Below are positions 1 through 15,798 of a DNA stretch of 48,913 nt, piece after piece. Source of the DNA: an uncultured Pelagibacteraceae bacterium. Its GTDB lineage: Bacteria > Pseudomonadota > Alphaproteobacteria > Pelagibacterales > Pelagibacteraceae. The notes under the pieces are model-generated. The model was not told where the DNA came from and did no database searches. It saw nothing but the letters and a program-made list of their open reading frames with translations. The position numbers were made by a program, and so were the translations under genes. The stretch spans positions 1-48,913 of the forward strand of contig CACCGK010000004.1 of the NCBI GenBank assembly GCA_902545555.1, read 5' to 3'. Each line of letters begins with the position of its first letter. Position 1 is the stretch's first letter.

Positions 1-189
1 AAGTTGTCCAACTGAATAACTCATATTAAATAAAGGCAACAAACCTGCTGCGTGCCAAGTAGATCCAGAAGTTAACTCTTTTCTTTCAACTAAAACAACA
101 TCAGACCAGCCCTTTTTTGCTAAATGATAAAGTGCACTTACCCCTACAACTCCTCCACCAACTACTACAACTTTAGTTTTTGTTTTCAT
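1..189 (-). CDS. Dimethylglycine/sarcosine dehydrogenase-like flavoprotein, N-terminal part (runs off the left edge)
   Basis: Only the first 63 residues lie in the window; the gene continues beyond base 1. ATG at 187-189. The start [16 protein letters not shown] is an FAD-binding Rossmann motif (GGGVVG, residues 11-16). It is followed by [15 protein letters not shown], where His46 is at the position of the covalent flavin histidine of dimethylglycine dehydrogenases. It closely resembles the N-terminus of the complete 801-residue flavoprotein at 7777-10182, with the same spacing and the same His46, so it is probably a paralogue. Expected reaction: oxidative N-demethylation of a secondary or tertiary amine. 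Whether a C-terminal folate (GcvT) domain follows cannot be seen. It lies 57 bases downstream of the DUF4864-like gene, at the end of the long minus-strand run. Confidence 0.75.
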
Positions 190-246
190 TCTGCGATTCC
201 TACTAAATTTTTAATTGTTACGAAACAAAAATGTATAAGTGGACAA

Positions 247-723
247 TCAAATAGAGCTTCCAAGAGGGATTGGATTGGATACCATTGTGGTTAACCAACA
301 GTCTTTCAAAGTTCCCTCAGAGGTGTACTTTTCGACTTGCCAATTGAATTTGTGATAAATTTTATCCTTATCAAGAATGATAACTTCAAATTGAGCCCAT
401 TTGTCACTACTTCCAAGTTCAGTGATTGTGTGACTTAGGTGGTTAATCATCATCCCATAAGAGTCGCTTTTTATCATCATCTTAAAGTTGCTTAATGGTC
501 CTGTAACTCTCTTATTATTTGGGTGAGCAAATTTCCAAGTTTGTTCTATACCACTATCTTGATATTGAAGATCGTTTTGTTGAAGCCCACTCAATTGAAT
601 TTTTATAACTTCTTTTGGGCTTATAGTACTATTGGGGTTTAATAATTCAGCGTAAGAAAATGAAATAAGAAAAAAAAATAAAATTACAGCTTTAGAGATT
701 ATTAGCGGTTTTTCTAACATCAT
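247..723 (-). CDS. Secreted DUF4864-like protein
   Basis: 158 residues. The N-terminus is a signal peptide with a hydrophobic stretch at residues 9-22 and likely cleavage after SFSYA (about residue 25), so the product should be periplasmic. The rest resembles DUF4864: a helix ending LQQND, then FAHPNNKRVTGPLSNFKMMI and a C-terminal beta-rich half ending in a W-containing segment. The fold is probably NTF2-like; function unknown. Two ATGs are adjacent (723 and 720). Either one makes the gene overlap the end of the upstream quinone-reductase-like gene by about 30 bases, so the two are probably translationally coupled. Nothing ties it to a step in demethylation. Confidence 0.7.
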   Translation of the reverse strand: MMLEKPLIISKAVILFFFLISFSYAELLNPNSTISPKEVIKIQLSGLQQNDLQYQDSGIEQTWKFAHPNNKRVTGPLSNFKMMIKSDSYGMMINHLSHTITELGSSDKWAQFEVIILDKDKIYHKFNWQVEKYTSEGTLKDCWLTTMVSNPIPLGSSI

Positions 724-1261
724 TTAAAAATTTTTGTCTCTTGGCATCACTAACAAATTGTACTGCAAAATATCTTCTATAGACAATGTTATATATGCCA
801 CACATATGAAATACCCCTCTTTTTAATCTTCTAATTGGTAAGTTTAAAAAAAAAGTTGTAATTGCTAATCTTGGTGAACCATATGTGCAGAATATTATAG
901 CTTTTTTATCTCTTAAATTTCCAATTGGATAACCGTAATTTCCAACTAACCGTTTAAATCTAAACGCCCAAGGTGGGGCTAAAACTTTATCTATCCAACC
1001 CTCAACTATCGCTGGCATCCTAAAATTCCAAATTGGAGCAATTAAAACAATTGTATCACTTTCTTCGATTCTTTTTCTATGATCTAAAACTTCTTGATCA
1101 GGTTCTTCACCAGCAAAAACAGGATCAAATTTCTCTTTATATAAATCAACAACATCTACCTGATTTCCATTTACTTTTGATTGCTTAACGAATTCATCTC
1201 GAATTGCTGCATTAAATGAATTGTCATTGTAGTGCCCATACACTAAGAAAATTTTTTTCAT
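692..1261 (-). CDS. NAD(P)H dehydrogenase (quinone)-like flavoprotein, flavodoxin_2 fold
   Basis: 189 residues with the flavodoxin-like layout of NAD(P)H:quinone oxidoreductases: first strand MKKIFLVYGHYNDNSFN for the FMN/FAD phosphate, then SDTIVLIAPIWNFRMPAIVEGWIDKV, the typical flavin-binding segment of the family. It is expected to be a cytosolic two-electron reductase of quinones or similar acceptors. ATG at 1259-1261, 12 bases after the transporter gene, in the minus-strand run that begins with the Rieske oxygenase. It could supply reducing power to an oxygenase, but it lacks the 2Fe-2S domain of a Rieske reductase, so that is speculative. Confidence 0.75.
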   Translation of the reverse strand: MKKIFLVYGHYNDNSFNAAIRDEFVKQSKVNGNQVDVVDLYKEKFDPVFAGEEPDQEVLDHRKRIEESDTIVLIAPIWNFRMPAIVEGWIDKVLAPPWAFRFKRLVGNYGYPIGNLRDKKAIIFCTYGSPRLAITTFFLNLPIRRLKRGVFHMCGIYNIVYRRYFAVQFVSDAKRQKFLNDVRKTANNL

Positions 1262-1273
1262 TATGTTAAATTT

Positions 1274-2884
1274 TTATTCAGTAGTTTTGTATTTACTATT
1301 ATTAATTATAAATACAAATAAAATTGGAAGAATTAATGTTAAAAGTGTTACAAAAATTAACAGTATTCCAAGTTCAGAATAATCTGCGGTTGTTTGTATT
1401 TCGCCAGAAACCTTATCCTTAACCTCTCTTGTTACAGTAAATATTTCATTTAAATATTTTGTTCCTAACGCACTCGCTGATAGTGCTAGATTTGTAAAAG
1501 ATGCAAAAACTGCAAAAAAGGTTGCCTTTAAATGTGCTGGAGCATTTTTTGCTATCCAAGCTAATAGAGGTATCATTGAAACTTGGCCAAGCGGAGACTC
1601 CAACGCCGTATTAATTAATGCAATAAATTTAGCATCAACAACTCCACCTGTTAACGAGGCTGTCCAGTTATGAAAACCATAATACATTCCAACACTCGGT
1701 AAAAACAAAATCGCACCCGCAATACTTAAAACTACAATTATTTTAGCAATTGAATTATTTGCCATAAAAGGTCTTAATAAAACAATGCCAGCTAATGTTA
1801 AAATTGATGCTAATAATGATAGAACAGAAAAAAACTGCTCATTAAATCCAAGTTCATCAATTTCGAACCATGTTAAACCAGGGCCAGGACCTGGCATGGC
1901 TCTAAATATAAATATTATTACTGCTGTACCTACAATTGTTAATCTTAGTTCCTGAGGTAATTCCTTAATAAGTTTAAACATTAAAAACAAAATGATTATA
2001 ACTGAGCCTATAAAAACAATTTCTTGCGCAAACGGAACCTTAAAGGAACCAATAGACAATGTGAAAATAACAAAAACTAAACTTCCTCCTAATATCCACC
2101 AGTTTATTTTTGTTTTTTCATTACCTCTTTCATCTTTAAATTCTAGACCTTTAGATTTTAAAGATTGTATTTTTTTATATCTTAAATAATTTGCTAAAAT
2201 TACACCTAGTATAGAAACTAAAGGTATTACAAGAGCATAAATGTAGATATTTCCATATAAATTTATCTTATCAGCCTGCTCAAGGCTTTCCACATCTCTA
2301 AACAATATTACATTAACTAATGCAACAAGCACTGTACCACCAATAATAGCAAACCTTCCAAGTGTCTGCATTGTTGTGTGCATTATTTTTATTTGATCTT
2401 TAGAATAATCATTTCCTGTTTCATCAACCAAAGGAACTGCCTCAACTGTCATAGCATCGGCTACAACGTCCTGAACCACGTAACCAACTGGAGCTAAAAT
2501 CACACTTATCACAAACCATGTTTCTACCGAAAATACCTGGGACATATCTTCAGTATGAATAATCAATCCATACATAATTAGTAAACTAAGAGCTATCAAT
2601 GAAGCTCCAAAGTAGACCATGTAATTTTTTCTCTCCCAGATTAGATCTACTAAATGTCCTAATGGCATTTTTAATGCCCAAGGAATTCCAGCCCAAAAAC
2701 CTAGTCCTGCTAAAAATGCTGCTGATAAATTTAAATAATCTTTAACAAAAAATGTACCAACAATTCCTGTTAAACCAGAAATACCTGCAGCCATATAAAC
2801 CATTAATGGAGGTAGATAAGTCCATTTAAATTGACGACCCAAATCTAAAAATGTGCTGTCTAAAAATTTAATTATTTTGCTCAT
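1274..2884 (-). CDS. BT1-like (folate/biopterin-type) major facilitator transporter
   Basis: 536 residues, about 12 or more membrane segments, inner membrane. Two stretches fit the BT1 folate-biopterin family rather than generic sugar or drug MFS proteins: the early segment with KDYLNLS followed by IPWALKMPLGHLVDLIW (about residues 48-85), and the mid-protein PGPGPGLTWFEIDELGF (about residues 330-346). A Lys-rich cytoplasmic loop near 235-260 separates the halves. Substrates of bacterial BT1-like proteins are mostly untested, so folate or pterin transport is a family-level guess. The context is suggestive, because several THF-dependent demethylases lie nearby. The start overlaps the stop of the upstream CoA-binding gene by one base (TAATG). 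Confidence 0.6.
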   Translation of the reverse strand: MSKIIKFLDSTFLDLGRQFKWTYLPPLMVYMAAGISGLTGIVGTFFVKDYLNLSAAFLAGLGFWAGIPWALKMPLGHLVDLIWERKNYMVYFGASLIALSLLIMYGLIIHTEDMSQVFSVETWFVISVILAPVGYVVQDVVADAMTVEAVPLVDETGNDYSKDQIKIMHTTMQTLGRFAIIGGTVLVALVNVILFRDVESLEQADKINLYGNIYIYALVIPLVSILGVILANYLRYKKIQSLKSKGLEFKDERGNEKTKINWWILGGSLVFVIFTLSIGSFKVPFAQEIVFIGSVIIILFLMFKLIKELPQELRLTIVGTAVIIFIFRAMPGPGPGLTWFEIDELGFNEQFFSVLSLLASILTLAGIVLLRPFMANNSIAKIIVVLSIAGAILFLPSVGMYYGFHNWTASLTGGVVDAKFIALINTALESPLGQVSMIPLLAWIAKNAPAHLKATFFAVFASFTNLALSASALGTKYLNEIFTVTREVKDKVSGEIQTTADYSELGILLIFVTLLTLILPILFVFIINNSKYKTTE

Positions 2885-3318
2885 TAGTCACTTAAAACTG
2901 GAAAAGCTTGTCTAACTTTTAAAAAATATTTTTGATATTCCATTTTAGTACATTTGTTTTCAATATACTTAATATCATTTTTTTCCATCAATTCTTTTGC
3001 TTTTTCGTCTCGTATACCGAGCTGCAACCATAAAACTTTAGCATTAATTTTAACTGCATCTTCTGCAATAGCATAAACTTCTTTTGATGGTCTAAAAACA
3101 TCTACAATATCAATCTTATCTTTAATATCAGATATTTTTGCAAAAACTTCTTCTCCTAAAATTTTTTGACCCTTGGCTCTGGGGTTAACTGGATAAACTT
3201 TAAATCCATATTTTTGCATATATTTCATAACTATAGTTGACGCTTTTGTTGGATCGTTACTTACTCCTACCATGGCAATAGTATTATATTTTGAGAGAAT
3301 TTCCTTAATATCACTCAT
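2884..3318 (-). CDS. CoA-binding domain protein (YccU-like)
   Basis: 144 residues forming a single Rossmann-type CoA-binding domain. It has MVGVSNDPTKASTIVMKYM as the glycine-rich nucleotide loop, VYPVNPRAKGQKILGEEVF (second strand and loop) and DIVDVFRPSKE, the signature of this family. It resembles the CoA-binding part of succinyl-CoA synthetase alpha but lacks the catalytic half. These proteins bind CoA or acyl-CoA in the cytosol; their role is not established. TAATG junctions on both sides place it in the operon. With the crotonase nearby it hints that some step handles CoA thioesters, although no CoA ligase is visible. Confidence 0.8.
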   Translation of the reverse strand: MSDIKEILSKYNTIAMVGVSNDPTKASTIVMKYMQKYGFKVYPVNPRAKGQKILGEEVFAKISDIKDKIDIVDVFRPSKEVYAIAEDAVKINAKVLWLQLGIRDEKAKELMEKNDIKYIENKCTKMEYQKYFLKVRQAFPVLSD

Positions 3319-3500
3319 TAATTATTTTTAATCTGTTTCTCACAAAATATTCTAGCTTCAGAAGCAGTCATTGGTTTTTCCAATGTTTTAGTTCCAGCTA
3401 CACATGCCTCAATCGCTCTTTTTTGATTATGATCTTTAAAATTATAAATTACTAATGCACCAATAATAATAAAAACTACTATTAAAATATTTTTTATCAC
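3318..3500 (-). CDS. Small single-pass membrane protein, unknown
   Basis: 60 residues. GTG start at 3498-3500, overlapping the stop of the upstream crotonase gene by one base (TAGTG). The N-terminus IKNILIVVFIIIGALVIYNF is one membrane segment or an uncleaved signal anchor. The C-terminal part is soluble, with two cysteines (ACVAG, IFCEKQIKNN) that could form a disulfide outside the cytoplasm. No family recognised. The packed junctions on both sides argue it is real. Confidence 0.6.
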   Translation of the reverse strand: MIKNILIVVFIIIGALVIYNFKDHNQKRAIEACVAGTKTLEKPMTASEARIFCEKQIKNN

Positions 3501-4279
3501 TATTTATTTTTCCAATTTGGTTTTCTTTTTTCTAAAAAGGCAGAAATTCCCTCTTTAGCATCCATTGCCATCATGTTAAGGGTCATCATTTTGCTTGTGT
3601 AAGCATAAGCTTTATTTAAAGGCATTTCTAACTGTTTGTAAAAAGCTTGTTTTCCAATTTTAATTGTCAAATTAGATTTTGAGGCAATTTTGTTTGCCAC
3701 CTTTAATACTTCATTATTTAATTTTGATTTTGAAAAATAATCATTTATTAATCCTATTTCTTTTGCATAATTTGCTTTTATAGGTTCTCCAGTTAAAAGC
3801 ATTTTCATCATTGATTTTCGATTTATCTTTCTGCTTACAGCAACCATTGGTGTACTACAAAATAAACCGATATTTACACCTGGGGTTGCAAACAATGCAT
3901 CTTTAGTACTGTATGCTAAATCACAACTTGCAACTAATTGACAACCTGCTGCAAATGCAGCTCCATGAACTTTAGCAATTACAGGTTTTCTACCTTCAAC
4001 AATTTGAAGCATTACTTTTGAACAAAGATTAAATAATTTTAAATATTTATCTCTCTTTTTTAAACCTCTAACTTCTTTTAAATTGTGTCCTGCGCTAAAT
4101 CCTTTGCCTGCACCCTCTAATATTATTACTTTAACTTTTTTATGAGTATCTAATTTTTTTAATGCCTTTAATAAATCTGAAAGATTCTTGAATGATAAAG
4201 AATTATAAGTTTTTGGTTCAGCAATGATAATTGATGAAACTTCGTTGTTAATTTTTTTAATTTTAATGTTACTAGTCAT
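3500..4279 (-). CDS. Enoyl-CoA hydratase/isomerase (crotonase) family protein, ECHDC3-like
   Basis: 259 residues, standard crotonase length. Visible family features are the oxyanion-hole segment AGKGFSAGHNLKEV (about residues 57-69), AKVHGAAFAAGCQLVASCDLAY (about 102-123) and FATPGVNIGLFCSTP. The last matches the ECHDC3-type subgroup, in which the usual Pro-Glu of classical enoyl-CoA hydratase is Pro-Gly, so ordinary hydratase activity is doubtful. It acts on an acyl-CoA in the cytosol; substrate unknown. It sits between the 2OG-oxygenase and the small membrane protein with no spacing. Confidence 0.75.
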   Translation of the reverse strand: MTSNIKIKKINNEVSSIIIAEPKTYNSLSFKNLSDLLKALKKLDTHKKVKVIILEGAGKGFSAGHNLKEVRGLKKRDKYLKLFNLCSKVMLQIVEGRKPVIAKVHGAAFAAGCQLVASCDLAYSTKDALFATPGVNIGLFCSTPMVAVSRKINRKSMMKMLLTGEPIKANYAKEIGLINDYFSKSKLNNEVLKVANKIASKSNLTIKIGKQAFYKQLEMPLNKAYAYTSKMMTLNMMAMDAKEGISAFLEKRKPNWKNK

Positions 4280-5131
4280 TTAATCAGTTAATCCATCGGA
4301 TCTAGCCTGATTTCTTTCTATATGAATTGGTAAAACTTTGCCATAAATAGCTTTGGAATGTTCTGGGGTGTTTACTCTCCATGGGTCTAAAACATAAGCT
4401 GGAATACACATATACCTTGATTTTTGGCCTTCAACTTTTGTTACCCTATGCAAAGTAAATCTACCTTTAAAAATTTGTAAATCTCCTGGCTCTAATTTTA
4501 ATTGTCTTACTCTGGTTCTGTCTCCAGCTATAACTTTTTGAACTTCTTCAAAATTTTCATTTCCTGGTTCTCTAATATTTGGACAGTACTCAAATACACC
4601 ACCCTTCTCAGGTTTTTGGATCATTAAACTAAGCGTAAACTCACAACTATCAAAATGCCATGGGAGTACTCCATCTGGTTTCATAACATTATAAGCATGA
4701 CATGCTAAAGGATCTGCCCATCTGTAAATAGGAGAAACACCTAAACAAGCAGATACAAATTTTAAAATTTCTTCGGTTTCGTATAAATATTTCATTTCGG
4801 AGTTTTTTGGAAAACAATCTGAATTTAAATATCCATTGTATCTATTCATAAAAGTTCTTTTTGGATGATCTTTTGGTAATGAGGGATCGTCCTTTGCATA
4901 TAAGTAAGCATTAATACTCTCTTTAGACATATAAACTTCGTCTAATTGTTTTTCTAACTCTGAATTCATTACTTTAAGTGATTTAGGTAAAATAAAATTT
5001 GGAATTGTTGAACAACTATATTGATCAAGTTCTTCTTTACATTTTTTAACTAGATTTTGAATTATTGGTGAATTTAATTCATGTATTGGATATTTTTCTA
5101 AATCTACAATAGTCTTAAGTCTATCGTTCAT
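4280..5131 (-). CDS. 2-oxoglutarate/Fe(II)-dependent oxygenase
   Basis: 283 residues. The iron-binding triad of the double-stranded beta-helix is visible: His159 and Asp161 (WHFDSCEFTLSL) and His228 (FKGRFTLHRV), with Arg239 in the right place to bind the 2-oxoglutarate carboxylate. Because the Asp is present, the protein looks like a hydroxylase or demethylase-type oxygenase rather than a radical halogenase, where that residue is Gly or Ala. An N-terminal helical region of about 110 residues precedes the core. Substrate unknown; a small amine or amino acid is possible from context. It is 6 bases after the nucleotidyltransferase gene and directly abuts the crotonase. Confidence 0.75.
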   Translation of the reverse strand: MNDRLKTIVDLEKYPIHELNSPIIQNLVKKCKEELDQYSCSTIPNFILPKSLKVMNSELEKQLDEVYMSKESINAYLYAKDDPSLPKDHPKRTFMNRYNGYLNSDCFPKNSEMKYLYETEEILKFVSACLGVSPIYRWADPLACHAYNVMKPDGVLPWHFDSCEFTLSLMIQKPEKGGVFEYCPNIREPGNENFEEVQKVIAGDRTRVRQLKLEPGDLQIFKGRFTLHRVTKVEGQKSRYMCIPAYVLDPWRVNTPEHSKAIYGKVLPIHIERNQARSDGLTD

Positions 5132-5137
5132 TTAAAT

Positions 5138-5512
5138 TTATTTTAATTTTCCTTCTTCTCTCATTTTTGCTCTTATTTGAGTAGCTGATATTTTTTGAGT
5201 TTCTTCATCCAAAACTATTTCCTCAATTTTATATCCAACTCCCCTACCATAACAAATATTTGTAATATTAGGTACTAACATTATTTTAAATTGTCCTTCA
5301 AACTCAGGATTTAATCTGTCTTCAATGTTTTTTTTTACTGTTTCAAAATCAAAAGGATTATCATCTACACCTTTTACATCTCTAACTTGAATACAAACTT
5401 GTCCTGTTTTTTTTATAATTTCTTTAAACAAAGTATAATGTCCTTCGTGAAAAGGTTGCCATCTTCCTAGCATTTGTGCTGTTGGTTTTTTGTTATCCCA
5501 TTGGTGTGTCAT
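5138..5512 (-). CDS. Nucleotidyltransferase-like protein (HxGH superfamily)
   Basis: 124 residues when started at the ATG at 5510-5512, which gives an ATGA overlap with the stop of the kinase gene; a longer reading frame adds 11 unlikely residues upstream. Motifs: GRWQPFHEGH (residues 16-25), the HxGH nucleotide-binding signature, and ISATQIR (108-114), the second signature of this superfamily. Such enzymes move a nucleoside monophosphate (AMP or CMP) to a phosphorylated substrate. The arrangement GRWQPFH resembles NMN/phosphosugar adenylyl- or cytidylyltransferases. The substrate cannot be told. The overlap with the kinase suggests the two act consecutively on the same compound. Confidence 0.75.
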   Translation of the reverse strand: MTHQWDNKKPTAQMLGRWQPFHEGHYTLFKEIIKKTGQVCIQVRDVKGVDDNPFDFETVKKNIEDRLNPEFEGQFKIMLVPNITNICYGRGVGYKIEEIVLDEETQKISATQIRAKMREEGKLK

Positions 5513-5919
5513 TTTTTTATCTCCTCTATTATTTTTGGTGCCCAATTTTTTGCGTCCTGAGTTGTTACATGAAAATCAAAATTCTTAGGTTTAACAAACA
5601 TTTGATTTGTGTCTTCAAATCTTCCTTCTTTAATTGTATCGACCCACACCCTAAAATCTGCTGGAAACAAGCTTCTTGCTTCAGGGGTTGGTGCAATGAA
5701 ATCAGCAATTACATAATGACCTTTTGCTTTTATTTTTAAAGCTGCTTCAGCCATTCTTTTTGCTTGTCTTACCCTTCCTTCTTTTGAAAAATCCCAATCA
5801 TTTGCAGCCTTTCTTACTTCGTCAGCATTTAATCTTTTAGCATTTAAGAGAGGTGCCATTTCATTTGCTAGAGTTGTTTTACCAGCTCCAGGTAAACCCA
5901 TAACTAAAATAATTTTCAT
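5509..5919 (-). CDS. P-loop kinase, adenylylsulfate-kinase-like
   Basis: 136 residues, shorter than a typical APS kinase (about 200). Walker A is GLPGAGKTT (residues 8-16), followed by LNADEVR, the adenylylsulfate-kinase-like substrate segment, and VIADFIAPTPEARSLF, the equivalent of the APS-kinase region after Walker B. The annotation 'adenylylsulfate kinase' would be a family guess: no sulfurylase or sulfotransferase gene is visible. It probably phosphorylates a small hydroxylated compound in the cytosol. TAATG junction with the DddP-like gene upstream, ATGA overlap with the nucleotidyltransferase downstream. Confidence 0.7.
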   Translation of the reverse strand: MKIILVMGLPGAGKTTLANEMAPLLNAKRLNADEVRKAANDWDFSKEGRVRQAKRMAEAALKIKAKGHYVIADFIAPTPEARSLFPADFRVWVDTIKEGRFEDTNQMFVKPKNFDFHVTTQDAKNWAPKIIEEIKK

Positions 5920-7154
5920 TAAATATCTTCTAGCGGATGATGGGACATTAATTCAAGTCCATTTTCACCTACAAGATACTGTTGTTCAAGTTTTACACCC
6001 TCTTTACCACCAACTTTACCAATATAACTCTCAAGTGTAATTGTCATGTTCTTCTCAAAAGTTCCACCTTCTTCTCCACCATCATTTGGGTATCTTATTT
6101 GAGGCCACTCATCACACAACCCAATTCCATGAACCATACATGAATACCTATTTCCATAATACTCATCAGGCAAAACCCAAGATTTTTTTATAAATTCTTT
6201 AAAACTCATTCCTGGTTTTATTAATCTAAAATTATGATCAATTTGATTTCTAGCCATTGAATATAGTTTTTTTTGCTCATCATTAAATTTATGTCCAACT
6301 ACAAAGGCTCTTGATATATCAGCACAGTATCCATAGGGACCAACCATATCTGTATCAAAAGCAACAATTTCTCCTTGTTGCATAACTTTGTTACTACTCT
6401 CTTGCATCCATGGATTTGTTCTTTCACCAGACGATAAAATCCTACACTCAATCCACTCTCCTCCATTTTCAATATTTGTTTTATGTAAAATTGACCACAA
6501 TTCATCTTCAGTCATTCCTGGCTTAAGATCTGATCTCATTTTTGATACACCTTTTTCTGCAACTTCTATTGCTGCTTTCATACAAGTCAATTCATCAGGT
6601 GATTTTATTACTCTTGCTTGTTCTAAAATCAATTTTGCATCTACAACTTCAATTCCTTCTTTATTTAAAGCTGTAATCGCAGGACCATTTAAAACATCGA
6701 TTGCAATTTTTTTAGTTTTAAAATAATTTTTTGATAAATCTTTAACTTCATTTATCCATTTTAATAATTGATTGTCTGCTTGGTCTCCATTACTAAAATA
6801 ATCCCATGTAATTGCTGGTCTTATTTCATCAATTAGATTTAAATGCTTCGATAATATTTCACAATTAAAATACTCATAAAGAATTGTTGGTCCATTGACC
6901 GGTACAAAACAATATCTTGTTAAATTATGCATATTATAGACACTCATGTTCACAGTATCTAAAGCATAACGAACATTCACCGGGTCAAATAGAATACAAG
7001 CTTCTAAATTGTTTTTTACTAATTCTTTTCTAACCCTATCTAAACGATATGATCTTAAATTATCAAAATCAATCTCGTCTTCTCTTAATCTTTTTTTAGT
7101 AATAAAATTTTGTCTTGGTTTTATCTCAGGAGCTATTTTTCTACTAAACCTCAT
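5919..7154 (-). CDS. dddP: M24-fold metalloenzyme resembling DMSP lyase DddP
   Basis: 411 residues: an N-terminal creatinase-like domain (about 1-180) and a C-terminal pita-bread domain. The metal ligands Asp267, Asp269, Asp279, His342, Glu375 and Glu390 are all present, and their spacing agrees closely with DddP. In particular, the extra Asp two residues after the first ligand is a DddP feature that ordinary Xaa-Pro peptidases lack. Asp348 in HGIGLCDEW matches the proposed DddP catalytic base. The stretches GGEWIECRILSSG and RTNPW also look like DddP. DddP cleaves dimethylsulfoniopropionate (DMSP) to acrylate and dimethyl sulfide. The betaine-demethylating surroundings leave room for a related substrate, so lyase activity is not certain. 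ATGA overlap with the upstream methyltransferase. Confidence 0.65.
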   Translation of the reverse strand: MRFSRKIAPEIKPRQNFITKKRLREDEIDFDNLRSYRLDRVRKELVKNNLEACILFDPVNVRYALDTVNMSVYNMHNLTRYCFVPVNGPTILYEYFNCEILSKHLNLIDEIRPAITWDYFSNGDQADNQLLKWINEVKDLSKNYFKTKKIAIDVLNGPAITALNKEGIEVVDAKLILEQARVIKSPDELTCMKAAIEVAEKGVSKMRSDLKPGMTEDELWSILHKTNIENGGEWIECRILSSGERTNPWMQESSNKVMQQGEIVAFDTDMVGPYGYCADISRAFVVGHKFNDEQKKLYSMARNQIDHNFRLIKPGMSFKEFIKKSWVLPDEYYGNRYSCMVHGIGLCDEWPQIRYPNDGGEEGGTFEKNMTITLESYIGKVGGKEGVKLEQQYLVGENGLELMSHHPLEDI

Positions 7155-7777
7155 AATACCCTATACAAACCTAACCATGCGTTAACATCTTTGCTTGCAA
7201 TATAGTCAGATTTAAAAAATTCTACTTCTTCCCATTTCTTATTATCTTTTAGTATATCAATTTTTTTATCAAAACCATACTCTTCATGAATACCTTCATT
7301 TATAGTGAAACAAATTAATCCACCTGCTTTTGTTATTCGTATAAATTCATCTAATGCATTTGGTTTTACATGGCCAAATGTAAACGTACCAACACACATC
7401 ACTCCACCATAAAAATTATCCTCAGCTTCTATTGGTTGGTTTAAATCAACTTTAACTAATTTTTGATAAAGATCTTTTGGAACTGTATCTAATAAAGTTT
7501 GAGATAAATCAGCTCCGTGAAAATTTTTAAAACCATACTTTTTTAACTCAACTCCAACTAGACCTGTTCCACAGCCTGCATCAAAGATTAGCGTATCTTT
7601 ATTATTTTCGTGCTTGTTGAAAGTTGCTACGGTTTCCTTTGGGCCTGTATAGTTCCAATCAATCATATCTTTGTTATACTTATCTTTATCTCCCCAATCG
7701 TCGTAGTACTTCATGACTTCATCGGTGGTTTTAAGTTTATAAATTGGAATTTTGTTTCCTACGTCTTTTTGTGCCAT
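7151..7777 (-). CDS. Class I SAM-dependent methyltransferase
   Basis: 208 residues. SAM-binding motif I is FDAGCGTGLVG (about residues 65-75), followed by the acidic ligand in HGADLSQ and the post-core strand GGLICFTINEG. The fold is the METTL27/UbiE-like small-molecule type. The N-terminal YDDWGDKDKYNKDMIDWNY is typical of this subgroup. Cytosolic; acceptor unknown. It overlaps the dddP-like gene by four bases and begins one base inside the stop of the flavoprotein gene, so all three are probably made together. A thiol, amine or carboxyl acceptor related to the osmolyte pathway is a reasonable but untested guess. Confidence 0.75.
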   Translation of the reverse strand: MAQKDVGNKIPIYKLKTTDEVMKYYDDWGDKDKYNKDMIDWNYTGPKETVATFNKHENNKDTLIFDAGCGTGLVGVELKKYGFKNFHGADLSQTLLDTVPKDLYQKLVKVDLNQPIEAEDNFYGGVMCVGTFTFGHVKPNALDEFIRITKAGGLICFTINEGIHEEYGFDKKIDILKDNKKWEEVEFFKSDYIASKDVNAWLGLYRVL

Positions 7778-10182
7778 TAGCTTCTCATTTTTTGGCCACT
7801 TGGATCATAAAGTGGTTCTTTAATAATTGAGCAATTAAATAAATCTCCATTTATCTCTATTTGAACTTTATTTTCAGATTTAATTTTTTCCTGATCAACA
7901 AAAGTAAAAGCAACACTCTTGTTTACAAAATGTGCAAAACCACCTGAAGTAACGTAACCTATGCTTTGATCTCCATTCATAACAGCTTCATTATTTGTTA
8001 CATCAATATCATTTGTTTCAACAATTAATGGAATTAGTTTATTTGAAGAATTTTCCTTTTGCGCACTTTCTTTACCAATAAATTCTTTATCCCAATTAAT
8101 AAAAGCATCTAATCCTGTTTCTTTAGCAGTAAAATCTGGTCTATAATCTAATGTCCAAGCTCCCCAATTTTTCTCCAACCTCATTGACATTAATGCTCTT
8201 CCGCCAAAAGGTTTTATATTAAATTCTTTTCCAGCTTCCATTAATTCTTCGTAAAGTTTTAATTGATAGTGAGGTGCTACATAAATTTCATATCCAAGTT
8301 CGCCGGTAAATGAAATTCTATTTATTATTGCTGGAACTCCTCCAACAAACATTCTTCTAGAGTCTCTAAATTTAAATTTTTCATTTGAAACATCGTCTCT
8401 TACAATTTTTTCTAAAACTTTCCTTGAGTTAGGTCCTGCAATAGACAATCCATGATACTCGTCAGATCTGTTGGAGTAACTTAAATTAAATTTTCCTAAA
8501 TGACTTTCAAACCAACGTCTATGCATTTCTTGAGCAGCTCCAGAACCAAACACCATGAATTCATTTTCATCTAAACAAGCTACAGTTAAATCACCACACA
8601 ACTTTCCTCTATATGACAACATTGGTGATAAAGATATTCTTCCTGGCTTTGGAAGTCTTCCAGCCATTATGTGATCTAAAAATTTTCTAGCATCAGGACC
8701 TTTGAATTCATGTTTTGAAAAGTTGGCAACTTCGATTAAACCAATGTTTTCTCTTACATTAATAACTTCTTTTGAAACATAGTCATGCGATCTTGATCTT
8801 TTTATTGTTGGTTCCTCATGAGCATCTTCTTTATTATTTGCAAACCACAAAACATTTTCCAATCCAAAACTATCTCCCATAACAGCACCTTGATTTACAA
8901 AACGGTCATATAGTGCAGTAGTTTTTTGTTTTCTTCCTTTTGGTAAAGTTTCATTTGGAAATGTCATAATAAATCTTCGTTCATAATTTTCTGAGGATTT
9001 GATTGTTCCATATTGAGGTGATGCGTAATCTCCAAATCTAGCAACATCCATTGCCCAAACATCAATAGAAGGTTCTCCATCAATAATCCATTCAGCTATA
9101 CATTTACCAACACCACCACCTTGGCAAAATCCAGCCATAACTCCAACTGCAACCCAATAATTTTTCATTCCTGGCACTGGACCAATAAGAGGACTTCCAT
9201 CTGGACCAAAAGTAAAAGGTCCATTAACTATATTTTTTATACCTGCACGCTCTAAGGCTGGCATTCTTTCAAACCCAATTGCCAATCTATCTTCAATATT
9301 ATCTAACTTTGGCTGAAGTAACTCATGTCCAAAATTCATTGGAGTTCCTTCTACTTTCCAAGGTGTTGATTTTGGTTCATAAGTTCCAAGCAACATTCCT
9401 TTTCCTTCTTGCCTGAAGTAAATATTCCCCTCAAAATCTGTACCAATAGGCAATCGTTGATCACCCATTGCTTCAATTTCTGGAATAGGTTCAGTGATTA
9501 AATAATGATGCTCCATTGGTTGAACAGGAAGATTAAGTCCAGCTAATTGCCCAACTTCTCTTGCCCACAGACCACCTGCATTTATTACTATTTCAGCATT
9601 TATATTTCCTTTTTCGGTAAAGACATCCCAAGTTCCATTTTCTTTTTGTTTCGTATCTTTTACGACAGTGTGAGTGTAATATTTTCCACCATAAACTTTT
9701 GCAGCTTTTGCAAAAGCGTAAGTAACTCCTGAAGGATCAACTTCACCATCGATAGGATCCCATAAGGCCAACAAATATCTAGATGGATCAATTAGAGGAT
9801 TTTTCTTTTTAACTTCCTCTAAAGAAATAAATTCTTGGTCAAGCCCCATATATCTTGCTTTTGATCTTTCTCTCTTTAAATAATCAGCCCACACTTCATT
9901 TGAAGCTAAATAAAAACCTCCACTAGGTTTAAATCCTACAGAATGACCTGACTCTTTTTCTATTTCTTTATACAAGCCTATTGTATAAGCCATCATCCTA
10001 GAGATATTAGGGTCAGATGAAATAACGTGAACATTTCCCGCTGCGTGCCAAGACGATCCTGAGGTAAGTTCGTTTCTCTCAAGTAAAATGCAATCCTTTA
10101 ATCCAAATTTAGATAAATGGTAAAGAATAGAACAACCCACCACACCACCACCTATGATTACAACTTTGGCATTTTTCTCCAT
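7777..10182 (-). CDS. Dimethylglycine/sarcosine dehydrogenase-type flavoprotein with folate (GcvT) domain
   Basis: 801 residues, the full length of the family. N-terminal FAD domain: GGGVVG (residues 11-16) and ELTSGSSWHAAG with His46 at the covalent-flavin position. After the substrate domain and a linker near 390-430 comes a GcvT-like THF-binding half (about 430-800) containing the family motif FTGELGYEIYV. Expected reaction: oxidation of an N-methyl group (dimethylglycine to sarcosine, or sarcosine to glycine) with transfer of the released carbon to THF. Its position three genes below the Rieske oxygenase and next to BHMT in the same run supports the dimethylglycine step. A paralogue begins at the left edge of the window. 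Confidence 0.85.
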   Translation of the reverse strand: MEKNAKVVIIGGGVVGCSILYHLSKFGLKDCILLERNELTSGSSWHAAGNVHVISSDPNISRMMAYTIGLYKEIEKESGHSVGFKPSGGFYLASNEVWADYLKRERSKARYMGLDQEFISLEEVKKKNPLIDPSRYLLALWDPIDGEVDPSGVTYAFAKAAKVYGGKYYTHTVVKDTKQKENGTWDVFTEKGNINAEIVINAGGLWAREVGQLAGLNLPVQPMEHHYLITEPIPEIEAMGDQRLPIGTDFEGNIYFRQEGKGMLLGTYEPKSTPWKVEGTPMNFGHELLQPKLDNIEDRLAIGFERMPALERAGIKNIVNGPFTFGPDGSPLIGPVPGMKNYWVAVGVMAGFCQGGGVGKCIAEWIIDGEPSIDVWAMDVARFGDYASPQYGTIKSSENYERRFIMTFPNETLPKGRKQKTTALYDRFVNQGAVMGDSFGLENVLWFANNKEDAHEEPTIKRSRSHDYVSKEVINVRENIGLIEVANFSKHEFKGPDARKFLDHIMAGRLPKPGRISLSPMLSYRGKLCGDLTVACLDENEFMVFGSGAAQEMHRRWFESHLGKFNLSYSNRSDEYHGLSIAGPNSRKVLEKIVRDDVSNEKFKFRDSRRMFVGGVPAIINRISFTGELGYEIYVAPHYQLKLYEELMEAGKEFNIKPFGGRALMSMRLEKNWGAWTLDYRPDFTAKETGLDAFINWDKEFIGKESAQKENSSNKLIPLIVETNDIDVTNNEAVMNGDQSIGYVTSGGFAHFVNKSVAFTFVDQEKIKSENKVQIEINGDLFNCSIIKEPLYDPSGQKMRS

Positions 10183-10190
10183 AAATTTAT

Positions 10191-11273
10191 TTATAACCTT
10201 TCTTTTTCAAAATTTACAATATTGTCTTCAAAATAAATATTTTTTAATTTGGACAATCTCTTTTGAAGAATATTTATATTTTTTTTAGTAAATGAAACTT
10301 TTTTTTGCTCTATTTCAGAAACTTGTCCCACATAGTTAATTGCATTCCAGACAGAAAAAATATTATTTAGTGAGAATTCCTTCAAATTGATAGATAAATT
10401 ATTGAAAGTATATTTTAGTTTTTCTAGTTTTATTTTAAATTTATCTTTTTCTATATTTTTTTTTATTTGAGATATTAATTTTTTGGGTTCTGAATTTTTA
10501 TAAAAACCATTCCTTGGATAGTAATATTTGAGAAATGATCCTGTAAAATCCTTTCCTGATGAGTATATAAGGAACATTTTTCCTTTAAAATTTAGCAAAG
10601 ATAAAAGAGGTTTAATAACATTTTTTACAGTCTGAGTTAAAGGAGACCGAAGCTTAAAACATTGAGATGCAATAATAAAATCATATTTTTTTGGAATTTC
10701 ACTTATATTTCTGGGTATAAAGTCTTTTAATTTTTTTTTTTGATCTTTTCTGTAAATAGTCAAAAAAATTTTTGACTTGGGTTTAATTGAACCATTTTTG
10801 TTATTAAAAGATAATTTCCAATTTTTTCTAATATAAGGACTTAAACTCATTAAGATCTTAGTAAAATCAATACCTTTTTTTCCAACTAATTCTAATTTTT
10901 CAAATTTTACATTGTCAGATGTAGAGTTATTTAGATCTTTATAGCTACAATTAGTAATATTAAAAATTAAAGTTTTATGTTCAGCAAATCTATCCCCTAA
11001 AAAACTTAGAAGCACATTAATATCATCGATACTTATTTCTTTACCTACAATAAATATAGGTTTATTTGGCAGATATTTATGCAGGCCTGACAAAAAAGTA
11101 GATATAATTGTTCCCTCACCAGTACCCGCGTCTAATACGTTAAAAATTGGTGACCGAGTACTGATTTTTTCTATTTTTTTAAATAAATAAAAAGCAATTT
11201 TTGATTTTTCATTAGTTGAGTTTACAAATGATAAATATTTGTCTCTAGAATCAAAAAAAGTTTTTCTCTTCAT
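10191..11273 (-). CDS. Methyltransferase-like protein of unknown function
   Basis: 360 residues, very Lys/Asn-rich. The N-terminal third looks like a class I SAM-binding fold: FNVLDAGTGEGT (residues 44-55) is a good motif I, followed by an acidic strand end at VGKEIS. The central and C-terminal parts are not recognisable; IPKKYDFIIASQCF could be the motif IV strand. There is no signal peptide or membrane segment. It sits between BHMT and the dehydrogenase with 8-base spacers on both sides, so co-transcription is likely. A methyltransferase taking part in betaine breakdown or its regulation is possible, but nothing shows the substrate. Confidence 0.6.
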   Translation of the reverse strand: MKRKTFFDSRDKYLSFVNSTNEKSKIAFYLFKKIEKISTRSPIFNVLDAGTGEGTIISTFLSGLHKYLPNKPIFIVGKEISIDDINVLLSFLGDRFAEHKTLIFNITNCSYKDLNNSTSDNVKFEKLELVGKKGIDFTKILMSLSPYIRKNWKLSFNNKNGSIKPKSKIFLTIYRKDQKKKLKDFIPRNISEIPKKYDFIIASQCFKLRSPLTQTVKNVIKPLLSLLNFKGKMFLIYSSGKDFTGSFLKYYYPRNGFYKNSEPKKLISQIKKNIEKDKFKIKLEKLKYTFNNLSINLKEFSLNNIFSVWNAINYVGQVSEIEQKKVSFTKKNINILQKRLSKLKNIYFEDNIVNFEKERL

Positions 11274-11281
11274 ATTTATTA

Positions 11282-12322
11282 TTAGTATTTGATCTCCTTA
11301 TTTACTTTTTTAAGAGATTTATCTGTTCCATGGTGAAAATGTTTGCTCATATCTGGCATATATTTCATTGAAATTGGTTTTTTACCAATTGCAACAGACA
11401 TTTCTCTGACATGATGAGCTTCAGCACCACAACATATACCAATAAAATTTATTTTATTATGAACACAATCTTTTGCAAATTCTGCCATTTCAAATCTGTT
11501 ACAAAATAAGTTGTCTAAAGCAACTGGAAATGCATTTCCACCAGGAATACAATCACAACCATGATCAGTAATATTTAAAAAACCAGGTTCTTCTTCTGTA
11601 GTTCTGTAAGGAACTGGAAGCCCTGATACATGACATGAAACTTTGTCTCTAACTTTTTTTAAAAGTTTCATTGTCATCTCGGGTCCTCTGTAACAATTTA
11701 ACCCAACAACATCAGCACCAAGATCTTCCATCATTTTACATGCATCCTCAGCACTATGACCTTCTCTAGTTTTATCTCCTCTAGGAATTGCAAAATTGCA
11801 TACCGCAATGAGTCCAGCTTCTTTAATTGCTTTTAATGCAATTTTCATTTCATCAGTCCAACTTATTGTTTCGGCAATAACAAAGTCAACACCAGCTTCT
11901 TTTGCCCAAGCAATTTGCTCTTCGTACATTTGTTGACATTGTTTGTGAGTATTAGGATCTCCTGGATCAAATACATTTGTGTTTGCCACATCTCCACAAA
12001 CCATAAGATCTAAATCTTTAAACTCAGCTGCAGCATCTTTTGCAATTTTAAGAGCGCCTTTTTGCATTGGTTCTAACAAATGTTCTTTACCAATTATTCG
12101 AAGCTTTTCTCTATGACCGTAATAAGTAAATGCTTGAACAACATCTGAACCTGCTCTAATAAATTCTCGATGTAATTGAGTTACTACCTCAGGATGTTCC
12201 ATAACAACTTCTGGAACAAATGGACCTGCTGAAAGATAACCCCTTCTTTCCATTGCAAAAAGATAGCCTTCTGCACACATTATTGGACCTTCATTTAATC
12301 TAGTAATAAGATCTTTTTTCAT
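11282..12322 (-). CDS. bhmt: Betaine-homocysteine S-methyltransferase (BHMT)
   Basis: 346 residues, a TIM-barrel zinc methyltransferase of the homocysteine S-methyltransferase family. The three zinc cysteines are visible: Cys210 (VVGLNCYRGPE) and Cys297/Cys298 (GICCGAEAHH). The N-terminal DGA-like segment reads CAEGYLFAMERRGYLSAGPF and the FTYYGHREKL loop follows. Expected reaction: glycine betaine plus homocysteine gives dimethylglycine plus methionine. A GAGGG ribosome-binding site lies at 12329-12333, in the 11-base gap after the Rieske gene. BHMT and a Rieske demethylase both convert glycine betaine to dimethylglycine, so if BHMT uses glycine betaine the Rieske enzyme may use a different betaine. 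Other methyl donors, such as DMSP, are possible. Confidence 0.85.
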   Translation of the reverse strand: MKKDLITRLNEGPIMCAEGYLFAMERRGYLSAGPFVPEVVMEHPEVVTQLHREFIRAGSDVVQAFTYYGHREKLRIIGKEHLLEPMQKGALKIAKDAAAEFKDLDLMVCGDVANTNVFDPGDPNTHKQCQQMYEEQIAWAKEAGVDFVIAETISWTDEMKIALKAIKEAGLIAVCNFAIPRGDKTREGHSAEDACKMMEDLGADVVGLNCYRGPEMTMKLLKKVRDKVSCHVSGLPVPYRTTEEEPGFLNITDHGCDCIPGGNAFPVALDNLFCNRFEMAEFAKDCVHNKINFIGICCGAEAHHVREMSVAIGKKPISMKYMPDMSKHFHHGTDKSLKKVNKEIKY

Positions 12323-12333
12323 AATTTACCCTC

Positions 12334-13521
12334 TCATTTTGTTAAGTTGGTTGCAACCCACTTATGAAACATCAAAGTAGGAGTATCCATTACAGGTGAA
12401 AAATTCCCGCCATTGTAAGCTGGGGAATTTCGTCCGTTTTGCATTCCTTCTATTGCAGTTACATCTTCATTCATAACTTCTTGCCAAAATGCAAAATTTT
12501 TTTTTCTTATATCCTTAAATTCATCACTAGAGGCACTTTCATCTCCAACATAATATAATTCAAAATGTTCTTTGGTTTGGTTGTTAGAAATTGGCTCTAA
12601 CCAAAATGCATAGAAATGATCAATATGTATTCCTAACATTACGTTTGGATAAAATGATACATATTCAGATTTTTCAGAAAGTTCAGTAGGCCAGTTAGGA
12701 AAGCATTTAAATTTAATGTTTCCATCAAACTGTTGTGAATATTTATTACTTCCTTGTCCTGAAAAATTTAAATTCTCATCTTCAATATGATAGTGATCTG
12801 AAATATTTGAAACTTTATTTAGTTCTGGATGTATCCACGGCAAATGATAACTTTCACAATAATTCTCAATTGCAAATTTCCAATTACTATTTACTGTCAT
12901 ATTAAAATATCCGTTATCAGTCGAATGTCTTATCAATTTTTGATCTTTTTTAGAAATAAACTTAGACCATCTATCCTCTAGAGGTTTAATAAAATCTTCA
13001 AATGGTTTTGCATTAGAATTTATATTGATAAAAATTAAATCCATCCAAATATTTGATTTAATTTCTTTTAAGTTACTATTGTTTTTATCAAACCCTTCAA
13101 CCTCATGTTTTCCTAGTCCCCCTATATGTGGAGTAACAGTTAATTTTCCATTAAAATCATAGGTCCAAGAATGATAAGGGCATCTTATTACATTTTTTAA
13201 TTTACATTCCTGATCAACTAATTTGAAACCTCTATGACTACAAACATTATGAAAAACTTTTACTTCATTCTCTTTGTTTCTAACTATTAGTATTGGTATC
13301 CCTAAAAGATTAAAAGGTTTAGCGTCGCCAGGATTAGGTACAGAACTTGCAACCCCAATCATCGTCCAATTATTTTTAAATATTTTTTCTTTCTCAAACT
13401 CTAAATAATCATTGTTCAAATAACATTCATTAGGTAATCCATGAGCTTTCTCTATAGGATTTTTAACAACTTCTATTTTATTGGGATCTAAGATGTCTGA
13501 TAATTTTTTATTTAAATTCAT
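12334..13521 (-). CDS. Rieske non-heme iron oxygenase, quaternary-ammonium (GbcA/CntA/stachydrine demethylase) type
   Basis: 395 residues. Rieske cluster ligands are Cys94-x-His96 (VCSHRG) and Cys114-x2-His117 (CPYHSW). The catalytic domain has NWKFAIENYCESYHLPWIH (residues 213-231) with His226 and His231 as mononuclear-iron ligands. The residue bridging the two metal sites is Glu223 instead of the usual Asp, as reported for carnitine oxygenase CntA. This points to oxidative demethylation or C-N cleavage of a quaternary ammonium compound (glycine betaine, stachydrine, carnitine or similar). No reductase partner is visible in the window. It is the first gene of the minus-strand run, with an ideal ribosome-binding site and a divergent transporter upstream. 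Confidence 0.82.
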   Translation of the reverse strand: MNLNKKLSDILDPNKIEVVKNPIEKAHGLPNECYLNNDYLEFEKEKIFKNNWTMIGVASSVPNPGDAKPFNLLGIPILIVRNKENEVKVFHNVCSHRGFKLVDQECKLKNVIRCPYHSWTYDFNGKLTVTPHIGGLGKHEVEGFDKNNSNLKEIKSNIWMDLIFININSNAKPFEDFIKPLEDRWSKFISKKDQKLIRHSTDNGYFNMTVNSNWKFAIENYCESYHLPWIHPELNKVSNISDHYHIEDENLNFSGQGSNKYSQQFDGNIKFKCFPNWPTELSEKSEYVSFYPNVMLGIHIDHFYAFWLEPISNNQTKEHFELYYVGDESASSDEFKDIRKKNFAFWQEVMNEDVTAIEGMQNGRNSPAYNGGNFSPVMDTPTLMFHKWVATNLTK

Positions 13522-13524
13522 AAA

Positions 13525-13530
13525 CCTCCT
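13525..13530 (-). promoter_or_regulatory. Strong ribosome-binding site of the Rieske gene
   Basis: On the minus strand this reads AGGAGG, a full Shine-Dalgarno match, three bases upstream of the ATG (a short spacer). Most genes in this window have weak or no such site. It supports the start at 13521 and suggests strong translation of the first gene of the run. Confidence 0.7.
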
Positions 13531-13720
13531 TTTTTTTTAATTAATTAAAAAATTAATCGAGGCTTAAAATTATCTTTCTCTAATTATGATTTGTTGAAAA
13601 ACAGTTTTGCAATTTAAAATATAAACAAATTCTTTGAAAAAAAAATTTGCAGAAAAAATCATACTAAAACTCTAAACAAAAATTTTGGTCAGTTAAAGAC
13701 AATTTTACTACAACCAATAG

Positions 13721-13758
13721 TTGAATATAATTTGCATTATTATGCTCAATATGTTCAA
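13721..13758. promoter_or_regulatory. 38-base interrupted dyad, candidate operator
   Basis: The outer arms are TTGAA and TTCAA, the inner arms GCAT and ATGC; 14 of 19 base pairs are symmetric. It overlaps the candidate -10 (TATAAT at 13726-13731) and ends 36 bases before the binding-protein ATG. It could be an operator for a dimeric regulator controlling both divergent operons, or a hairpin in the leader. No regulator gene is nearby in regions 1-2. Confidence 0.45.
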
Positions 13759-13794
13759 TTTAACTTTTAAATGAATCAAATGTTGGGAGATATA

Positions 13795-14805: not shown

Positions 14806-14816
14806 TTAAAAATATT

Positions 14817-14842
14817 ATCAAACCCGCTTCGGCGGGTTTGAT
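14817..14842 (+). terminator. GC-rich UUCG hairpin between binding protein and permease
   Basis: TCAAACCCGC, loop TTCG, GCGGGTTTGA: an 11-base-pair stem with a very stable tetraloop, starting 11 bases after the binding-protein stop and ending 12 bases before the permease start. The T-tract is short, so it is probably a partial terminator or an mRNA 3' stabiliser. That would raise the binding protein relative to the permease, a common layout in ABC operons. Confidence 0.7.
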
Positions 14843-14854
14843 TAAATAAAAATT

Positions 14855-15742: not shown

Positions 15743-15798
15743 ATTAGTCTCAATCGAATTTTCTAGACTCATATCTCAAAATAAATAAAGATTTCATT

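Follow-up and report, generated by a model that had tools for sequence, protein, structure and literature searches.

Bases 1-48913 of contig C4 (the window, 48,913 nucleotides) come from the SAR11 metagenome-assembled genome G000 (1.05 Mb in 43 contigs, 77% complete). A minus-strand run of genes fills its left end, beginning with a Rieske oxygenase gene and facing a divergent OpuAC-OpuAB transporter. We interpret this region as a mosaic catabolic island in which a demethylation arm and a trio of oxidative enzymes inherited together have joined a pre-existing backbone, a reading to which we assign a probability of about 0.5. The trio comprises the Rieske oxygenase, a BesD/HalD-family 2-oxoglutarate-Fe(II) (2OG) oxygenase (HalD-like) and a DddP-like M24 metalloenzyme. 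Few cell types in the sea are as abundant as SAR11 bacteria, whose diet shapes ocean carbon and nitrogen cycling.

The initial annotation had described a sixteen-gene run whose members touch or nearly touch, and this description holds: 16 open reading frames (ORFs) extend from 13521 down to base 1, and their 15 junctions range from a 32-base overlap to a 57-base gap. From the Rieske gene to the left end, with gaps positive and overlaps negative, the junctions measure 11, 8, 8, -1, -4, -1, -4, 6, 0, -1, -1, -1, 12, -32 and 57 bases. The kinase (KIN)/nucleotidyltransferase (NT) overlap of 4 is counted from an internal ATG at 5512 and not from the TTG at 5545, and the overlap of 32 hinges on which start is taken for the DUF4864 ORF. 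Since the window starts at base 1 of the contig, the left edge of the run is the contig end. The gene labels proposed from reading were valid at the family level (Pfam, NCBIfam). Pfam families in the run comprise Rieske, S-methyl_trans, M24, APS_kinase-like, 2OG oxygenase, crotonase, CoA_binding_2 and BT1 transporter, and NT gave a CTP_transf-like match of 21.9 bits (cut-off 21). Most matches are family-level, not equivalog, and only the enoyl-CoA hydratase family protein (ECH) passed an NCBIfam cut-off (PRK08139, 349.7 versus 313 bits). The sole long terminator-like hairpin in 1-18000 (11 pairs, 14817-14842) lies between the two divergent transporter genes. Promoter-like matches were uninformative because they were fewer (62) than in shuffled sequence (mean 83.7). 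An Rfam search of the window returned no riboswitch match, and riboswitch control of the run was dropped.

Comparison with other loci (L numbers) revealed that part of the run exists without the rest. Eighty loci were fetched by DddP-like homology, so that this gene is present by construction; most are close relatives, and 45 are full length. Those closest to the window in their DddP-like gene are labelled Pelagibacteraceae or Ca. Pelagibacter ubique. All 45 full loci encode the Rieske oxygenase, a betaine-homocysteine methyltransferase-like protein (BHMT), a dimethylglycine dehydrogenase (DMGDH)-like enzyme, a class I S-adenosylmethionine (SAM)-dependent methyltransferase (MT), KIN, NT, the HalD-like protein, ECH and the CoA-binding protein. 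DUF4864 is present in 40 of them, the 60-aa ORF and BT1 in 39, the flavodoxin-like Fld2 in 34 and ORF360 in 10. A second sample consisted of 20 stretches around the MTHFR gene, one (L200, genome G196) with a DddP-like gene and 19 from genomes without it. In 16 of these 19, ECH, DUF4864 and the DAO gene stand together at the same site, and none of the 16 has BHMT-A (the type of BHMT in the window) or a close HalD-like gene there. Across all 19, NT and the CoA-binding gene were each found in 15 (the NT of L182 missed the coverage cut, yet was seen on direct inspection), KIN and Rieske each in 13, Fld2 in 12, a close HalD-like gene in 2 (L197, L198) and BHMT-A in none. By these counts, the window consists of the backbone plus OpuAC-OpuAB, BHMT-A, ORF360, the DAO-GcvT fusion, the DddP-like gene and the HalD-like gene, which sits between NT and ECH; the METTL27-like MT and the Rieske gene are also counted among the additions. 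Rather than a single indivisible operon, the run is a mosaic. The view that all of it forms one system was not borne out, as the backbone stands without a DddP-like gene in 16/19 loci.

The second line of evidence is co-occurrence in 197 SAR11-family genomes (G numbers), from lists compiled by hand from match tables and with tests that ignore phylogeny. Distant copies were set aside: Rieske genomes fell from 57 to 56 without G068 (only a 39% paralogue), BHMT genomes from 60 to 38 without the 22 with only the B type described below, and HalD-like genomes from 39 to 34 without G038, G078, G122, G126 and G130 (only a 51-57% paralogue). This left a DddP-like gene in 34 genomes, a close HalD-like gene in 34, Rieske in 56 and BHMT-A in 38. 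Every DddP-like genome also carries Rieske (34/34), and nearly all carry HalD-like (32/34) and BHMT-A (32/34) genes. The DddP-like/HalD-like mismatches are G025, G130 and G087, G104, and when the count is limited to the 77 genomes of ≥90% completeness and ≤5% contamination, the two genes occur in the same 17. Linkage alone does not explain this pairing, because the genes are unlinked in four genomes (~125 kb apart in G043, 113 kb in G166, on other contigs in G127 and G152). BHMT-A also lies away from the DddP-like gene in several genomes of genus g3 (e.g., G057, G062). Conservation of the set, proposed at the outset as a check, thus holds for the trio and BHMT-A, which co-occur across genomes even when some are unlinked, and fails for the full run, which is not one set.

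Association of the trio extends beyond SAR11. Among 385 class-level genomes (three SAR11 genomes are among the matches), 54 have Rieske, 78 a DddP-like gene and 47 both. A HalD-like profile built from SAR11 proteins was run on 22 of the 46 non-own genomes with both genes and on 22 controls; it matched 10/22 of the former versus 0/22 with neither gene (p 0.0005). Of the 11 genes that the profile matched, four have a DddP-like match 52-223 bases away, measured between match ends (G224 twice, G354, G483). These are three non-SAR11 genomes of two families, G224 and G354 belonging to one and G483 to another; in G483, Rieske, HalD-like and two DddP-like genes fall within ~6.7 kb. In family f31, the DddP-like gene adjoins MT (L161) or ORF360 (L162, L163) in 3/3 loci. 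In G494 it adjoins an MTTB-family gene (Pfam) and a DAO-GcvT gene, and MttB-like genes are also near it in L168, L178 and L179; this neighbourhood is suggestive only, because MttB genes may be numerous in such genomes.

Residue patterns of the Rieske protein provided a third line of evidence. It scored 130.3 bits over residues 23-236 against the GbcA model NF058607 (cut-off 670), and among solved proteins CntA gave the highest score (134 bits, residues 26-372). PMC7948474 takes an aromatic residue at CntA position 203 as the mark of clade Va (carnitine, choline, benzalkonium) and Asn as that of Vb, the demethylase clade. The window has Tyr at position 203, as do 120/120 rows, some of which repeat a gene covered by two loci. 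In 27/27 rows (19 distinct genes) from other genomes the residue is Tyr or Phe. With the aromatic 203 and the bridging Glu205 in place, and the Asn of GbcA and Vb absent, the protein is predicted to be group Va-like, not GbcA-like. Something beyond plain glycine betaine is therefore plausible, given the co-occurrence and an aromatic 203 in place of the Asn of demethylases. The suggestion of a longer pathway for an unusual betaine survives to this extent, for an M24 enzyme and a 2OG oxygenase accompanying betaine-type genes and for the Va residue, but not for the whole run. The position of the Rieske gene varies: it is beside BHMT in window-type loci, between MT and the DddP-like gene in L099-L110 where both are covered, and directly before the DddP-like gene in genus g3.

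For the HalD-like protein, a profile search of PDB sequences found nothing, and a fold search succeeded. Its structural model (predicted local distance difference test score, pLDDT, 78) matches the BesD/HalD fold and the lysine hydroxylase 7jsd (7jsd_A: Z 18.5, 229 residues, 3.5 Å). In BesD-type halogenases the facial-triad carboxylate is replaced (HxG). The HalD-like protein lacks this signature; its triad, H159-F160-D161 plus H228, is invariant in 19 copies. Since HxD is invariant, the protein is predicted to be a hydroxylase, not a halogenase. HalD-like genes also have a second context, at L258 9561-14151 (compare L187, L213), with hydroxyisobutyrate-dehydrogenase-like (by reading) and class II aldolase genes; L258 and L187 both add MR_MLE, and L258 also SDR.

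The DddP-like protein contains all eight residues that we take to be the ones that matter in DddP (D295, D297, D307, Y366, H371, D377, E406, E421), as do 181/183 rows. It nevertheless reached only 353 bits against the NCBIfam DddP equivalog (cut-off 600). In a 57-row tree with one characterised DddP, RlDddP, the SAR11 DddP-like proteins and those of f31 formed a clade with 100/100 support, with RlDddP in another group; the exact place of RlDddP is unsure because its own branch is long. The tree places the protein, as far as such data can, outside the clade of the characterised lyase of dimethylsulfoniopropionate (DMSP). A small protein without a Pfam match adjoins the DddP-like gene, before it in the run, in L122 (10678-11049) and L124 (10671-11111); a SET-domain label for it was dropped for want of that match. 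In 14/78 loci a 390-400-base gap between MT and the DddP-like gene perhaps holds the same small gene.

BHMT occurs as two paralogues, BHMT-B sharing 44-49% identity with the window copy, BHMT-A. A SAM-V riboswitch precedes BHMT-B in 5/7 loci (L198 17269-17332, L202 10541-10605, L203 9330-9395, L204 10360-10424, L208 2834-2898), and none was found in L201 and L205. Neither the window nor the BHMT-A loci L044, L101, L120, L206, L207, L209 and L210 yielded a SAM-V match, and none was seen near the A copy of L208. Position 77 (human BHMT) is Tyr in BHMT-A and Asn in BHMT-B. BHMT-A keeps cysteines 217, 299 and 300 (human numbering), presumably the zinc ligands. At the positions that we take to form the betaine site (D26, W44, F76, Y77, E159, Y160), the window has E, F, Y, Y, E and T. 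Against NCBIfam PRK07534 it scored 100.3 bits (cut-off 338). For the BHMT-A and DAO-GcvT genes, an ordinary glycine-betaine reading is available. The nearest solved structure to MT is METTL27 (E 4e-24). No other stretch of the run has a GC content as low as the one holding ORF360 (0.249), whose DAGTGEG motif points, by reading, to a SAM-dependent methyltransferase. No solved relative of ORF360 emerged from a profile search, and its AlphaFold model was poor (mean pLDDT 42.4). In relatives such as L181, the DAO gene cut by the contig end in the window (1-189) is followed by etfB, etfA and ETF-QO genes (Pfam). DMGDH-type enzymes usually pass their electrons to electron-transfer flavoprotein (ETF) and ETF-QO. 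Between the DAO-GcvT gene and MT, L124 has a gene read as an amidinotransferase (12952-14061, 369 aa); the creatine-type reading that it inspired was dropped, the gene being seen once with only a weak arginine-deiminase-type Pfam match.

From gene content, order, modularity, co-occurrence and residue patterns, we infer the reactions, the recycling of homocysteine and the substrate class as follows. OpuAC-OpuAB would import a betaine-type osmolyte. By family chemistry, BHMT-A would pass one methyl group to homocysteine and the DAO-GcvT enzyme would take the next, its one-carbon unit going to folate and its electrons to ETF. Using betaine for its carbon would call for regeneration of homocysteine, which a SAM-consuming methyltransferase would provide; this role may fall to the METTL27-like MT, joined by ORF360 where present. 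In line with such recycling, the other members of the SAM cycle are encoded nearby in two f31 loci (L161, L162), with BHMT, AhcY (S-adenosylhomocysteine hydrolase), MetK (S-adenosylmethionine synthetase) and a PfkB kinase within 20 kb, kilobases away. The trio (Va-like Rieske, BesD-type hydroxylase, DddP-like enzyme) would hydroxylate and then cleave a quaternary-ammonium compound or N-methylated amino acid other than glycine betaine, one that BHMT does not take. Trimethylamine from a CntA-like reaction could feed the trimethylamine monooxygenase and the trimethylamine N-oxide (TMAO)-demethylase-like protein of the window. NT, ECH, the CoA-binding protein, the flavodoxin-like protein and DUF4864 would form the backbone already present at the site, with no need for them to act on betaine. 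More tentatively, the trio may constitute an undescribed alphaproteobacterial osmolyte route, coupled in SAR11 to a dedicated catabolic BHMT and a SAM-consuming, homocysteine-recycling methyltransferase. Among the matches listed in open-licence literature on SAR11/Pelagibacter Rieske, betaine, DddP and carnitine, the set was not described.

Several observations weigh against the mosaic island as we propose it. Rieske occurs without a DddP-like gene in 22/56 Rieske-bearing SAR11-family genomes, and Fisher p values overstate the associations because related genomes are not independent. Outside SAR11, Rieske lies within 15 kb of a DddP-like gene in only 5/46 class-level genomes (one G224 DddP-like copy was left out, with no effect on this count); 12/22 genomes with both genes, f31 among them, have no HalD-like match, and the 22 control genomes are smaller on average. 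SAM-cycle genes near the DddP-like gene are confined to two loci of one family. Finally, a search of the window genome (77% complete) for a PF00175-type reductase, a candidate electron donor of the Rieske protein, found none.

An ordinary glycine-betaine operon at an insertion hot spot, in which glycine betaine is broken down through BHMT, DAO-GcvT and the transporter and all further genes are merely co-located, is the strongest alternative, and in our judgement an unlikely one. The neighbours of BHMT-A and DAO-GcvT in L206 and L209, a TauD-type oxygenase gene and a choline-dehydrogenase-type (GMC) gene, point to choline and glycine betaine. The site also accepts unrelated cassettes, such as EgtD-like with DinB/FGE genes (L184, L185), a C-5 DNA methylase (L189) and autotransporter-type proteins (L101-L105, L108, L109). 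Mere co-location, however, does not account for a co-occurrence that holds when some of the genes are unlinked, and outside SAR11.

A carnitine-side route, with the trio acting in a trimethyllysine/gamma-butyrobetaine/carnitine pathway that ends in glycine betaine, appears improbable. It draws on L211 and L212, where a HalD-like gene unlinked from the DddP-like gene accompanies carnitine-dehydrogenase-like, BKACE, thioesterase and SDR genes, and on related Rieske genes that adjoin carnitine-dehydrogenase-like genes in L237 (with BKACE) and L239. The CntA match and a hydroxylase fold matching lysine/ornithine hydroxylases and halogenases agree with it, and by hand count a carnitine-dehydrogenase-like gene occurs in 24/34 DddP-like genomes versus 14/163 others. 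Yet this gene is missing at E 1e-30 from ten DddP-like genomes, including the window genome (best E 5e-14) and its relatives G063, G168, G176, G186 and G192, and the protein itself is under its cut-off (354 of 414 bits).

The OpuAC protein bears on a third alternative. It matches 7yle, whose numbering fits RnDmpX; PMC10030565 names the pocket residues of RnDmpX as W35, T64, W84, E113, W152, A153, Y200 and W202. The window keeps 7/8 of these, including Tyr200, and has Asn at position 153; among 67 copies, this position is Asn in 34, Gly in 31 and Ala once (L121), and the distant copy L171 has Gly there and Gln at 113. A DMSP/sulfonium island, in which DmpX-like import, a DddP-like DMSP lyase, a DmdA-like GcvT and (in relatives) a methanethiol-oxidase-like protein would complete a pathway, gains from the eight DddP residues, the OpuAC pocket and the presence, in some relatives, of island genes for ferredoxin and a methanethiol-oxidase-like protein (158 bits, cut-off 650), but appears improbable given the low DddP equivalog score, the clade apart from that of RlDddP, the Asn or Gly in place of Ala153 in 66/67 OpuAC copies, and partners, Rieske and BHMT, from quaternary-ammonium-type families.

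Against L044, L072, L078 and L096, a tract of the window at ~12.5-15.5 kb (Rieske, OpuAC, most of OpuAB) has 65-74% identity, compared with 82-87% in adjoining 500-base bins and mostly 86-98% beyond, and represents an allele exchange. The two alleles of OpuAC are distinguished at pocket position 153, by Asn or Gly. In 64 loci, OpuAC of ~58-63% goes with Rieske of ~58-63%. Functional co-variation was rejected as the cause; the pairing reflects recombination tracts, since the genes adjoin and many OpuAC copies of at least 79% (e.g., L090, L097, L101) still carry a ~60% Rieske.

The KIN/NT pair (5138-5919) is not tied to a betaine substrate. Five phage records (Stenotrophomonas/Xanthomonas/Clavibacter) have adjoining homologues of the two genes, which match a single 230-aa PHROG, phrog_10255; the pair may form one functional unit. 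KIN scored 35 bits against the apsK equivalog-domain (cut-off 138.7), and sulfate assimilation was rejected on scores and on the phage pair. DmdD was set aside as an identity for ECH, weakly: DmdD entries were not among 14 PDB matches at E 1e-30.

Other cargo was seen at the site. EgtD-like genes beside EgtB-type genes (L184 14890-17024, L185 14277-16456; the L184 EgtB-type gene is DinB + FGE-sulfatase by Pfam) suggest ergothioneine synthesis, and an EgtD-like gene (PF10017) lies between Rieske and HalD-like in L198. In L122 (5053-6788), the methanethiol-oxidase-like gene and a plant-type ferredoxin gene are inserted after ECH; the former is also present in L079, L080, L083, L094, L130, L185, L196 and L200. 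One or two proteins of ~700-775 aa are encoded between KIN and NT in L101-L105, L108, L109, L099, L111, L125, L129 and L131, the L104 copy having an autotransporter beta-domain. C-5 DNA methylase genes (one Pfam-confirmed) and a neighbour in L189 (3058-6270) are perhaps a restriction system.

Table 1. Coordinates of the genes discussed, in window positions.
Feature	Position	Strand	Remark
Rieske oxygenase alpha subunit, group V-like	12334..13521	-	Tyr at CntA 203, bridging Glu 205, no CxxC pair
BHMT-A, betaine-homocysteine methyltransferase-like paralogue	11282..12322	-	Tyr77 equivalent kept; no Rfam riboswitch found
ORF360	10191..11273	-	no Pfam/NCBIfam match; DAGTGEG motif
DAO + GcvT fusion, dimethylglycine/sarcosine dehydrogenase-like	7777..10182	-	Pfam/NCBIfam
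MT, class I SAM-dependent methyltransferase	7151..7777	-	closest solved structure METTL27
DddP-like M24 metalloenzyme	5919..7154	-	clade apart from RlDddP
KIN, small P-loop kinase, APS-kinase-like	5509..5919	-	family match
NT, small cytidylyltransferase-like nucleotidyltransferase	5138..5512	-	family match
HalD-like, BesD/HalD-family 2OG-Fe(II) oxygenase, predicted hydroxylase type	4280..5131	-	HxD...H triad
ECH, enoyl-CoA hydratase family protein	3500..4279	-	backbone
60-aa ORF	3318..3500	-	hydrophobic N-terminus
CoA-binding domain protein	2884..3318	-	backbone
BT1/folate-biopterin-type MFS transporter	1274..2884	-	family match
Fld2, flavodoxin-like oxidoreductase	692..1261	-	backbone
DUF4864-like protein	247..723	-	backbone; under Pfam cut-off
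Second DAO-type dehydrogenase, 5' part, first 63 codons	1..189	-	cut by contig end
OpuAC substrate-binding protein, DmpX-like pocket	13771..14805	+	family match, residues
OpuAB permease	14855..15742	+	family match
MTHFR-like protein	15799..16527	+	backbone flank; slightly under Pfam cut-off
GcvT/DmdA-like aminomethyltransferase	16520..17878	+	backbone flank; under DmdA cut-off
Trimethylamine monooxygenase	36672-38051		745 bits, cut-off 675
TMAO-demethylase-like protein	45785-48157		1087 bits, cut-off 1100

Should the trio prove to be a new osmolyte route, surveys of dimethylsulfide producers should leave out DddP-like genes of this clade, and a marker gene would become available for an overlooked nitrogen osmolyte. 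The existence of both BHMT-A, in its catabolic context, and SAM-V-preceded BHMT-B also matters for surveys in which SAR11 bhmt serves as one marker; PMC12478193 treats SAR11 Bhmt as one enzyme with glycine-betaine residues kept, without experimental validation.

The window resembles several known systems in part. Like CntA, the group Va carnitine monooxygenase, its Rieske protein keeps the Tyr203 and Glu205 equivalents; unlike CntA, it lacks the Cys206/Cys209 pair (CxxC) described in the passages available from PMC10952381, and the window genome yielded no PF00175 reductase. The BesD/HalD free-amino-acid 2OG halogenases and hydroxylases (7jsd, 7u6h) have a fold in common with the window protein, but identity is 11-17% in the quoted rows and the window has the HxD triad, not the halogenase signature. 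The DMSP lyase RlDddP (4rzy) is 36% identical to the DddP-like protein over 391 columns and shares all eight residues, whereas the window protein is below the equivalog cut-off and in a separate clade. The Arctic SAR11 betaine island, given in the excerpt of PMC12421898 as CHDH, ALDH, carnitine dehydrogenase, BBOX and BKACE, is, like the window, a variable, betaine-related feature of SAR11; its gene list largely fits the L211/L212 context, not the window, and that excerpt mentions no Rieske or DddP-like gene. A further comparison is with the SAR11 glycine-betaine pathway of Sun et al. (2011; PMC3160333), which in the text seen comprises bhmT (SAR11_1173), dmgdh (SAR11_1253) and sardh (SAR11_1221), with metF (SAR11_1264) adjoining AMT (SAR11_1265). 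The word "Rieske" is absent from that text, in which DddP was not searched. Pathway and window have BHMT-like, DAO-GcvT-like, MTHFR-like and GcvT-like families in common, and the metF-AMT pair resembles the MTHFR/GcvT flank of the window; as far as that text goes, however, the pathway names one bhmT, whereas BHMT-A of the window is a paralogue separate from the SAM-V-preceded BHMT-B.

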